From contig JADLCD010000046.1 of NCBI GenBank assembly GCA_020847395.1, positions 1 through 64,000 of the forward strand: DNA of 64,000 nucleotides, read 5' to 3'. This DNA comes from Chitinophagaceae bacterium. GTDB taxonomy: Bacteria; Bacteroidota; Bacteroidia; Chitinophagales; Chitinophagaceae. This document shows, piece after piece, positions 30,723-54,260 of this stretch. The notes below the pieces were generated by a model, which searched no databases, was not told where the DNA came from, and saw only the letters and a program-made list of their open reading frames with translations. Position 1 is the stretch's first letter. Each line of letters begins with the position of its first letter. Position numbers and translations under genes: made by a program.

Positions 30723-30868
30723 ATGCATCAGGGTGCATTGCAAATTGTCGCATTGGGCTTCATGTGGGCAGTGAAGACGCTGCCCACGGCAGGCGCTCTG
30801 GCTGGTGCCTGCCTGTCCGGTAGGCAGGTCTCACGAGCCAGCGACAATTTACAATGCACCCCATGCAT
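30723..30868. repeat. ~146-bp palindromic (MITE/REP-cluster-like) element
   Basis: Near-perfect ~29-bp terminal inverted repeats ATGCATcaGGGTGCATTGcAAATTGTCGC / GCGACAATTTaCAATGCACCCcATGCAT plus internal hairpins GTGGGCAG..CTGCCCAC and CCTGCCT..AGGCAGG. Confidence 0.85.
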
Positions 30869-31017
30869 CATTATAAAAAATTAATGGGAAACATTTTACC
30901 TGTTCTATGAAAATCAATGGGCTTATCGGGGAGAATATTACTACCTGCAATTATGAGATACCCGGTAAAAAGATTTATGATGCAACCTGGCATAATATTT
31001 TCAATTAGTATACTGTA

Positions 31018-31103
31018 GTTTCTTATGGGGTGGTTTGGTAAAACAAATCTGAGATCACACTCCTTGTACCTGATCTGGGTAATTCCAGCGTAGGAAAAGA
31101 AAC
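31018..31103 (+). ncRNA. TPP riboswitch (THI element) aptamer
   Basis: GGGGTGGTTTGGTAAAACAAATCTGAGATCACACTCCTTGTACCTGATCTGGGTAATTCCAGCGTAGGAA core closed by P1 GTTTCTT/AAGAAAC. Confidence 0.92.
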
Positions 31104-31108
31104 GACGG

Positions 31109-31137
31109 AGCTTCGGGTAAAACCGAAGCTTTTTTTA
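31109..31137 (+). terminator. Intrinsic terminator immediately after TPP aptamer
   Basis: AGCTTCGG-GTAAAA-CCGAAGCT followed by T-run. Confidence 0.9.
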
Positions 31138-31514: not shown

Positions 31515-31988
31515 ATGGACAAAACAAATTTTGGAGGGTTTCATATTTCAAGTCCTGTTTTTAGCAACGGGGGAGCTATTCCAGCCAGGTATACATGCGA
31601 GGGCGAAGGCGTAAACCCTCCGCTTAACACCAGCAATATTCCTGAAGGTACTCAAACACTGGCGTTGATTGTAGAAGATCCCGATGCACCTGGTGGTACA
31701 TATGACCATTGGATTGTTTGGGATATTGAACCGGGCATGGCAATAAAAGAAAACTCGAATCCAGGAATATCAGGTACAAACTCATCCGGCAAAACCGGCT
31801 ATCATCCACCCTGCCCGCCTGCGGGAAGTCATCGCTATTATTTTCATATGTATGCATTAAACATTAAGCCGGATATACCGGCAGGTGAAACTAAAGAAAA
31901 GTTGCTGCAGGTTATACAGCCTTATATTATTGCAGAGGCAGTAATAATGAGTACATATGAAAAGCAAACCCTTGATTCTGAAGTCTGA
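31515..31988 (+). CDS. YbhB/YbcL (PEBP/Raf kinase inhibitor-like) protein
   Basis: ALIVEDPDAPGGTYDHWIVWDIEP; GYHPPCPPAGSHRYYFHMYAL. Confidence 0.93.
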   Translation: MDKTNFGGFHISSPVFSNGGAIPARYTCEGEGVNPPLNTSNIPEGTQTLALIVEDPDAPGGTYDHWIVWDIEPGMAIKENSNPGISGTNSSGKTGYHPPCPPAGSHRYYFHMYALNIKPDIPAGETKEKLLQVIQPYIIAEAVIMSTYEKQTLDSEV

Positions 31989-32657: not shown

Positions 32658-32823
32658 GAAGAAGTCACAAAAGGAACAAAATCGCTTTGAGAACCTTTGT
32701 GAACCCTTTGCGGAACTTGGTGCTGTAACACAAAAAACGCGAAGAAGTCACAAAAGACACAAAATCGCTTTGAGAACCTTTGTGAACCCTTTGCGGAACT
32801 TAGTGCTGTAACACACAAAACAC
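32658..32823. repeat. 83-bp tandem duplication
   Basis: GAAGAAGTCACAAAAG..ACAAAATCGCTTTGAGAACCTTTGTGAACCCTTTGCGGAACTT.GTGCTGTAACAC repeated at 32658 and 32741. Confidence 0.9.
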
Positions 32824-42072: not shown

Positions 42073-42639
42073 TTAAACTTCAGATTCCTGCTCTGCTTCC
42101 CAATTGATCTTGCTTTTAGCAATATCAGTAAGGCTCTGATCAGTTTGCTTTTCTTCTTCCAGCGTTTTTGCTAAAATAGCAACAGCATCTTCTAATCCCA
42201 GTGTTTGTGCCAGCGATACAAGCCCGCCGTAAGTGGCTATTTCATAATGTTCAACCTTTTGTGCGGCCATAATAATACCTACGTCCCGCGTCATTGTGCC
42301 ATCTTCGGTCTCTTCAATAATAGATTCACCCTCTTTGGTAAGTCCTTCCATTGCTTCACATTTTTTAGCCTGTGCCTTTTTGCCAATAATTTCAAATACT
42401 TCTTCAAGCCGGGAAACGTGCTCCTCGGTTTGCGTAAGATGTTCTTCAATAGCTGTCTGCAACTCTTCAGTAGTAGCTGCCTTCTTCATTTTGGGCAATG
42501 CTTTGGTTAAATGTTTTTCAGCCCAATAAATATCTTTTAGGGCATCTTCAAAATATTTTTCTAATTGTGTGTTGCCTTGCCCTGCACCGGATTTCTTTGA
42601 CATCTGTTTGTTTGATGTTGCTTTTTTTGTTGTTGCCAT
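42073..42639 (-). CDS. DUF892 (YciE/YciF-like) ferritin-fold protein
   Basis: YFEDALKDIYWAEKHLTKALPKMKKAATTEELQTAIEEHLTQTEEHVSRLEEVFE. Confidence 0.93.
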   Translation of the reverse strand: MATTKKATSNKQMSKKSGAGQGNTQLEKYFEDALKDIYWAEKHLTKALPKMKKAATTEELQTAIEEHLTQTEEHVSRLEEVFEIIGKKAQAKKCEAMEGLTKEGESIIEETEDGTMTRDVGIIMAAQKVEHYEIATYGGLVSLAQTLGLEDAVAILAKTLEEEKQTDQSLTDIAKSKINWEAEQESEV

Positions 42640-42709
42640 AAATTATGTTTTGTACTATAGAAATAAAAAACAGTGCCAGTATTGGTATGTATTTAGTAAC
42701 ATAGATTAT

Positions 42710-52365: not shown

Positions 52366-52808
52366 ACATATATATTAAATGACTATGATTGCATGTTATC
52401 TTTTTTGCAGTAAAACAAGCCCTCTATGATTAACGATGCTTTCCTTATAAAGTAAACGAGCGTATCAAAATTGTGCCAGTTATATTCCTTATAATTGTTC
52501 AGTGCCCTTGTAAAAAGAGAATAATTAATTGTTAACAGGTAACAGCCGAAGGTATTTTATATCGCTTAAATTCCACAATCGCTGCGTATTAAATTGCACA
52601 CCGTGTAGAACTTTCCGGTTGGTAGTATCAGGCATTCGCAACCGTATGAAAGAGCATGCATAAGCGCACTGCATGTTTCCATATATTTTATTGGCGCATC
52701 AACTGCAGACAATAAACATATCATAAAAAATATCAGGGAAAACACGGGTTGCCTACTGGCACGGATGGCTTGGTATTTGTACTTCACATTGGCTTAATAA
52801 GACAATCC

Positions 52809-54260
52809 ATGCTGAATCAACATCAGTCTATAGGACAACACCTGACGATTAATCCCAAGCAGATTGCGCAGCTCGCGGTATTTCAGCTTGACACGCTTAA
52901 CCTGAAGCAGCGAATAGAATATGAGATAGAAGAAAATCCTTTTTTAGATAAAACAGACAATGCGGTTGAAGAGGAGGCGAAGCGTTCCGTAAATGAAGCG
53001 CTTGAGGAATGGCAGAGCTGGGAAGATTTTTATAATAATGATTATACAGATCGGCACCAGTATTTTGTAGACTCAAATGGATTTGAAGAACAATGGTATC
53101 TTTCCGATAATGAAATACAAGGTGATTACCGCACCGATTTAAAACAACAACTAAAGTACATAAAGCTTACACCGATATATTACAACCTGGGTTGTTTTAT
53201 TCTTGATTCCTGCAATGATAAAGGATATCTTGAACTTGATATTACAACACTGGCTGACGATTTTTCTTTTAAAAACTCGTGCTGTATTACTGAAGATGAT
53301 GTACGTAATGTAATTGCACATGTTCAACAATTAGAGCCATTAGGCGTTGCTTCATCTGGCATACTCGAATATTATCTTTTGCAGGTCTCTCAAAAAGGTA
53401 AAAAAAATATTCCTGGAGGTACTTTATATGTTTTGAACCATCACTTTACTGATCTGCAAAGAGGCAGGTGGAAAGAAATTAATCAATCCATTGCAAAAAA
53501 TAATTTTTCTCTTACAGCTATTCTTGGTTTTTTATCCAGGTTGAGAAAGGCGCCGGTTGATACAGAGATCACTTCATTGGCCTATATCATACCCGATTTT
53601 ATATTATCGTTTGAAGGCGATAATTTAAAAGTTGGCTTGAATAAGACTATGGCATCATCAATAAAAATTAACAGCAGCTATGCCGAAGAACATGTCTTCT
53701 CATCAGGGGTAAGTAATCAAAATGAAAAAATATATTTGAGGCAGAAATACCAGCAGGCGCAATGGTTTGTCGAAGCCATCCGGTTAAGAGAAAAGCACCT
53801 GTTACAAATAATGCATTGTATTGTGCTATTACAGCAGGAATATTTCTGCTCAGGCTGCGAAATTGATCTTAAGCCTATGTTGATGAAGCATATTGTTGAT
53901 AAAACTGGTCTTAATATTTCTGTTGTTTCAAGACTAATTTCTAATAAACATATTGCTACTCCCTTCGGCACCGTCAGTTTGAAAAGCTTATTTTCAGAAG
54001 GTGTGCCTACAACAACCGGGGAAGCAAAGAGTAGTGCTATAGTAGAGCTTGCTATTAAAAATATTGTAAAAGATGAAGATAAAGCCCGGCCTTTTACAGA
54101 TAAGCAGATCACTACATTGTTGCGCAACCAGGGATATATGATAGCAAGAAGAACCGTTACCAAATACCGGGAACGGATGGGGCTTCCCGTTTGTAAGGTA
54201 AGAGAACAAACTGCCAAAGGAAAAACTTCAATTGATAATGAGGATATTATTTTAGTATAG
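52809..54260 (+). CDS. rpoN: RNA polymerase sigma-54 factor (divergent)
   Basis: QLAVFQLDTLNLKQRIEYEIEENPFLD N-terminus; ARRTVTKYRERMGLP RpoN box. Confidence 0.88.
   Translation: MLNQHQSIGQHLTINPKQIAQLAVFQLDTLNLKQRIEYEIEENPFLDKTDNAVEEEAKRSVNEALEEWQSWEDFYNNDYTDRHQYFVDSNGFEEQWYLSDNEIQGDYRTDLKQQLKYIKLTPIYYNLGCFILDSCNDKGYLELDITTLADDFSFKNSCCITEDDVRNVIAHVQQLEPLGVASSGILEYYLLQVSQKGKKNIPGGTLYVLNHHFTDLQRGRWKEINQSIAKNNFSLTAILGFLSRLRKAPVDTEITSLAYIIPDFILSFEGDNLKVGLNKTMASSIKINSSYAEEHVFSSGVSNQNEKIYLRQKYQQAQWFVEAIRLREKHLLQIMHCIVLLQQEYFCSGCEIDLKPMLMKHIVDKTGLNISVVSRLISNKHIATPFGTVSLKSLFSEGVPTTTGEAKSSAIVELAIKNIVKDEDKARPFTDKQITTLLRNQGYMIARRTVTKYRERMGLPVCKVREQTAKGKTSIDNEDIILV

Follow-up and report, generated by a model that had tools for sequence, protein, structure and literature searches.

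The 64-kb stretch of Chitinophagaceae DNA analyzed here (the window, 64,000 nt) carries a TPP aptamer set between a predicted promoter and a predicted terminator of its own, and here it is proposed that this element is probably, if with some reservation, a separately transcribed TPP-binding small RNA of a sigma54-like stress regulon. The existence and structure of the promoter-aptamer-terminator unit are strongly supported at the level of prediction, and its transcription as a discrete RNA that binds TPP is very likely; beyond this, we infer that the RNA would act in trans on targets, with TPP occupancy setting its activity. By sequence and predicted structure, the window element is one member of a family found in Chitinophagaceae and a few other Bacteroidota. 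The features concerned are the following:

30988 to 31003, forward strand: predicted sigma54-like promoter, with a -24-like TGGCAT (30988-30993) and a -12-like TTTTCA (30998-31003)
31015 to 31136, forward strand: predicted small RNA of about 122 nt, from the promoter geometry and the terminator
31018 to 31103, forward strand: TPP aptamer (RF00059), P1 to P1, with P1 and P4/5 covarying in relatives
31109 to 31136, forward strand: intrinsic terminator, AGCTTCGG-GTAAAA-CCGAAGCT followed by a T-run, from folding and pair covariation
52749 to 54260, forward strand: complete RpoN (sigma54), with the Pfam domains AID, CBD and DBD all matched

The aptamer lies where the original prediction had placed a THI element with a closed P1. 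Positions 31016-31113 (+) match Rfam RF00059 over its full length (1-105/105) with 53.2 bits and an E-value of 1.9e-9, which is 1.1 bits below the gathering score of 54.3, and because of this difference a default Rfam scan overlooks the window aptamer. The closed P1 has 7 bp (GTTTCTT 31018-31024 / AAGAAAC 31097-31103), and the core, with CTGAGA at 31049-31054 and ACCTGATCTGGGTAATTCCAGCGTAGG at 31068-31094, retains the TPP contacts (CTGAGA and the pyrophosphate sensor). The terminator that had been described directly after the aptamer is likewise present, its stem being formed by AGCTTCGG (31109-31116) and CCGAAGCT (31123-31130) with a T-run to 31136, at 3-5 nt from P1. The folded stretch has a z of -4.1 against shuffles, none of 200 shuffles being equally stable. 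A 22-codon ORF within the RNA (ATGGGGTGG...) was rejected as a candidate, not being kept in the sequences of relatives, and nothing in Pfam matches the 71-aa ORF that overlies the element on the minus strand. An inverted repeat (30731-30861) with 21-nt arms, 95% complementary and 89 nt apart, lies between the upstream gene and the element and is possibly a MITE-like insertion.

An aptamer followed at once by a terminator, but by no thi gene, was found in the same-genus relatives G002, G004, G006 and G007, and the next gene runs in the opposite direction at the G002, G004, G006 and G003 copies. The G003 copy (L037) is decayed, with the promoter, the 5' strand of P1 and the 5' strand of P2 gone and the 3' half and terminator kept, and it adjoins the same convergent gene as the intact G006 copy. 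The window and four relatives served to build the covariance model R1, with which 399 genomes of Chitinophagaceae were searched; about 8 kb were fetched around the best places, and 62 matches were aligned, representing 57 genomes and 28 genera of the family. At low scores R1 and the class-wide model R2 also match canonical TPP aptamers, and most class-level matches had no promoter and were set aside; the R2 search outside the family returned mainly canonical TPP aptamers, with promoter matrix scores of at most 8, and four loci (L172, L174, L175 and L181) with scores of 13 to 19. A pattern scan for the promoter plus half of the aptamer, with no terminator in the pattern, gave 22 hits in 85,462 species genomes, 19 of them real and three (L203, L209 and L211) rejected as chance. 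All 19 real hits are in Bacteroidota (Chitinophaga species, Pseudoflavitalea, Dyadobacter sp. LHD-138 and MAGs), and in all of them a closing P1 is followed by a terminator hairpin, the T-run being weak in L219; about half are new relative to the earlier set. Two copies lie about 5.2 kb apart in G251 (L080), and G074 has three. The copies of genus g95 (L084, L090, L091, L099-L101 and L104) have a long insertion, of about 30-45 nt, in the P3 arm of the aptamer, and G031 has five TPP aptamers, one of which (L049) precedes a terminator beyond which lies a convergent gene. The patchy occurrence within the genus, together with the one decayed copy, indicates that the element is dispensable in some lineages.

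Judging by its pattern of base changes, the element is under selection as an aptamer plus terminator. In the 62-sequence alignment, compensatory change on both sides was seen in at least one sequence for 30 of the 36 pairs, and compensatory cells numbered 380 as against 93 in shuffles, counts that lean towards the structure because the alignment was fitted to the model; sliding the pair partners by 1-3 columns destroys the signal. P1 is 95% paired and every one of its pairs covaries, as do all 11 pairs of the terminator (97.8% of cells paired). CTGAGA is present in 68 of 68 copies, and the pyrophosphate-sensor residues are near invariant.

This conservation bears on the relic reading, offered in the original prediction for a thi operon and extended here to a transporter, in which the loss or relocation of such genes would have left the aptamer stranded. 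ThiC is indeed missing from the genome of origin, and the decayed copy in G003 would suit such a history; against it stand the purifying selection on P1, core and terminator over 28 genera, where these parts and the promoter are intact at unrelated sites, and a promoter unlike that of canonical TPP leaders. The loci of the relatives have thi genes only at L136 and L137, which are thiC leaders with canonical TPP riboswitches and were excluded. Absent from 62 of 80 relatives tested, ThiC is encoded elsewhere in the genome in 15 of 40 carriers of the RNA as against 3 of 40 non-carriers (uncorrected for kinship), and since carriers so often keep it, the RNA is more than a leftover of a lost biosynthetic pathway; a relic is regarded as highly improbable. 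Apart from the window element, the genome of origin has a single TPP aptamer (68.7 bits); it lies 84 nt 5' of an ORF of 787 aa that, by its N-terminal sequence, looks like a TonB-dependent receptor.

The window element has the best predicted promoter site of the 64 kb (20.4 bits; the window was left out when the matrix was trained), and the start predicted from it, at about 31015, is immediately 5' of P1. The promoter consensus among copies is YTGGCAY-R-N-T-rich-A, and the pyrimidine-purine pair 25/26 nt past its first G falls at the start of P1. A strict form of the motif precedes 45 of 68 copies; of the 17 canonical TPP aptamers none has it, and among random 80-mers from the same loci it occurs in 1.2%. 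A GGCA occurs within 70 nt upstream in 58 of the 68 copies examined. Ten copies are without the GGCA motif: four (L130, L131, L136 and L137) were set aside as canonical-like and without promoter, L127 has the promoter motif with one base changed, and the others are the G003 copy, L096, L119, L129 and L103. At L096, L119 and L129, and perhaps L103, the aptamer and terminator lie just 3' of a gene that has a sigma54-like promoter itself (a DUF4142-like gene in the first three), and since the motif precedes the gene directly upstream, the element at these four loci would be part of a 3' UTR, one able to bind a ligand.

Compared with the published sigma54 consensus, TGGCAC-N5-7-TTGCT (PMC12316311), the GG, the CA and the spacing are conserved, and the GC of the -12 half is mostly replaced by T/C. 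Because the -24 half and the spacing fit and the -12 half is T-rich, the promoter is termed sigma54-like and sigma54 dependence is not claimed. The RpoN encoded in the window is a candidate for the factor that would read the promoter of the element; there are two matches to Sigma54_DBD in the genome of origin, and rpoN is present in 392 of 399 genomes of the family. With a predicted promoter and a predicted terminator of its own, the element has the organization of a gene for a trans-acting small RNA.

A predicted promoter of this type also precedes the DUF892 gene of the window, and the features concerned are:

42662 to 42681, reverse strand: predicted promoter of the same type, immediately 5' of the DUF892 gene; at 19.9 bits it ranks second in the window
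42073 to 42639, reverse strand: DUF892 gene (PF05974, E 3.2e-55)
26763 to 56140: island of genes for SDR, DUF2249-hemerythrin, Rrf2, DUF326, PEBP, DUF6496, two DUF892, DUF6766, DUF2383, DUF4142, KGG and MscS

In the whole window, 22 promoter sites were found, as against 5.8 expected from mononucleotide shuffles. Within about 4 kb, 32 of the 62 copies have stress-type families as neighbors (DUF892, DUF4142, KGG, DUF6496, UspA, DUF326 and Ku, among others), whereas none of the 13 canonical TPP loci that made up a small control does. Within the copy loci, promoter matrix sites lie about 20-26 nt before the starts of stress-type genes, among them homologues of DUF892, Ku, DUF326 and DUF4142. When a one-mismatch motif was used to look for the regulon genome-wide, the result was rejected as too noisy (83 sites against 55 in the reversed control); the sites inspected were mostly inside genes, whereas the analysis of the orphan loci was clean by contrast. 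The island of the window is dense in stress-type genes and has the complete RpoN inside it, and two tandem 83-nt direct repeats, 94% alike, lie at 32658-32823, 3' of an outer-membrane protein gene. An even chance is given here to the wider proposal that these small RNAs form a family of their own, acting in trans under the control of TPP, which, as part of a sigma54-like stress regulon, would report vitamin B1 status under stress in Bacteroidota, the natural riboswitch aptamer having been fully divorced from cis control.

The next plus-strand ORF after the window element (31515-31988) encodes a PEBP (PF01161, E 2.1e-35) and starts 378 nt past the T-run, with no thi gene between the two, in agreement with the earlier description of a PEBP-like gene about 380 bp away that is neither a thi gene nor a transporter. 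Control of this gene or of OMP genes in cis, which had been suggested as well, found no backing, as the PEBP is not a conserved neighbor, many of the next genes are convergent, and an antiterminator was not seen. More generally, TPP might promote termination in an attenuator, and at low TPP transcription would continue into the following gene, in antisense where that gene is convergent. Consistent with this, 39 of the 62 first downstream genes are co-directional (gene calls being crude), some of them starting within 60 nt, and 9 of 60 copies have a possible antiterminator pairing (>0.5). However, the remaining 23 are convergent, the 62 genes belong to 51 unrelated groups with at most three members each, so that no conserved co-directional target such as a cis-acting TPP riboswitch has was found among them, and in the window the next gene is distant. 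In folding, the terminator forms with a probability of 0.95, and pairing of its 5' half with the aptamer, with the 3' half withheld, has a median of 0.02 compared with 0.09 for shuffled tails (Wilcoxon p 0.22), the values for the window copy being 0.06 and 0.18. Mutually exclusive terminator and antiterminator structures were not detected beyond shuffles in the folding of these 60 copies, and given this and the terminator probability, a ligand-controlled attenuator is unlikely for most copies; as an account of the element it is judged quite unlikely, and residual cis action may persist in some copies.

In the preferred reading as a free-standing TPP-binding small RNA, the sigma54-like promoter would start transcription at P1, the transcript would fold into an intact TPP aptamer, and the constitutive terminator would end it after about 122 nt. 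Without TPP, P1 would open and free its pyrimidine-rich 5' strand (GUUUCUU in the window), a best guess and the weakest step; the freed strand would pair with purine-rich mRNA leaders, and bound TPP would lock it away. Because the RNA is compact, with a linker of 3 nt and a terminator loop of 6 nt, P1 is the most plausible ligand-controlled seed. Its strand bias, pyrimidine-rich on the 5' side and purine-rich on the 3' side, lends this little weight, because the strands of canonical P1 helices look similar by eye.

No conserved exposed seed outside the aptamer was found among the copies, an absence that counts against the pairing model and would fit two other modes of action. As a TPP sponge or reserve, an abundant stress-induced aptamer RNA would bind TPP without pairing to mRNA, either lowering free TPP, with derepression of the canonical TPP riboswitches as a result, or holding a pool of it in bound form. 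The conserved parts are promoter, aptamer and terminator only, as a sponge would need, and the canonical TPP riboswitches of the same genomes would feel a change in free TPP; but the RNA would have to reach a copy number comparable with that of free TPP, and we know of no natural precedent for a TPP sponge RNA, so this reading is considered unlikely. Alternatively, the RNA could hold or release a regulatory protein according to TPP, as Rli55 does with EutV in a B12-dependent manner, a riboswitch-controlled precedent (PMC8079631); no conserved extra motif offers itself as a protein site, and such sequestration is very unlikely. For the free-standing small RNA, the stand-alone RNA put forward in the original prediction holds up as a sequence prediction, as a gene with a binding-competent aptamer, and the "responsive" or "regulatory" part of that claim stays conditional on the mechanism outlined above.

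Most of the riboswitch RNAs known to act in trans are by-products of riboswitches that work in cis. With the TPP riboswitch (THI element, RF00059) the element shares the aptamer fold, CTGAGA, the pyrophosphate-sensor core and P1 closure; it differs in that no thiamine gene is adjacent, a switching platform is not detectable, the terminator is predicted to be constitutive, and the promoter is of a different type. SreA and SreB of Listeria are terminated SAM riboswitch RNAs that act in trans on mRNA (PMC8079631), and the product of the element would likewise be an aptamer-terminator RNA, its trans action being presumed by us; SreA, however, is in the first place a cis riboswitch of a downstream operon, whereas the element is free-standing, has no cis target and would have TPP as ligand. 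In Rli55/EutX and AspocR, a B12 riboswitch is tied to a non-coding RNA (PMC8079631), and the aptamer is thus, as here, coupled to a non-coding RNA and not to an mRNA, but the riboswitch there decides the making of a longer functional RNA, whereas the RNA of the element ends right after the aptamer. Barrick and Breaker (2007) had remarked on functional-looking aptamers away from cognate genes, perhaps governing trans-acting RNAs or only recently orphaned (PMC2258182); that remark was general, and the present case is one defined, conserved family, described together with its promoter, its terminator, its distribution and the context of its regulon. Three gene-linked TPP riboswitches have been reported in B. 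thetaiotaomicron (PMC7366714). For Bacteroidota, the open-licence literature yielded no account of stand-alone TPP RNAs, an absence that is not proof, and a TPP-sensing small RNA of this family seems not to have been described previously.

The label "TPP riboswitch" on such matches implies a downstream target that is absent, and the named carriers in Chitinophaga, Pseudoflavitalea and Dyadobacter make the small RNA testable. If the proposal is true, natural aptamers can become free-standing ligand-sensing RNAs, and vitamin B1 status would be linked to the stress physiology of Bacteroidota, a phylum with many members that have no ThiC.
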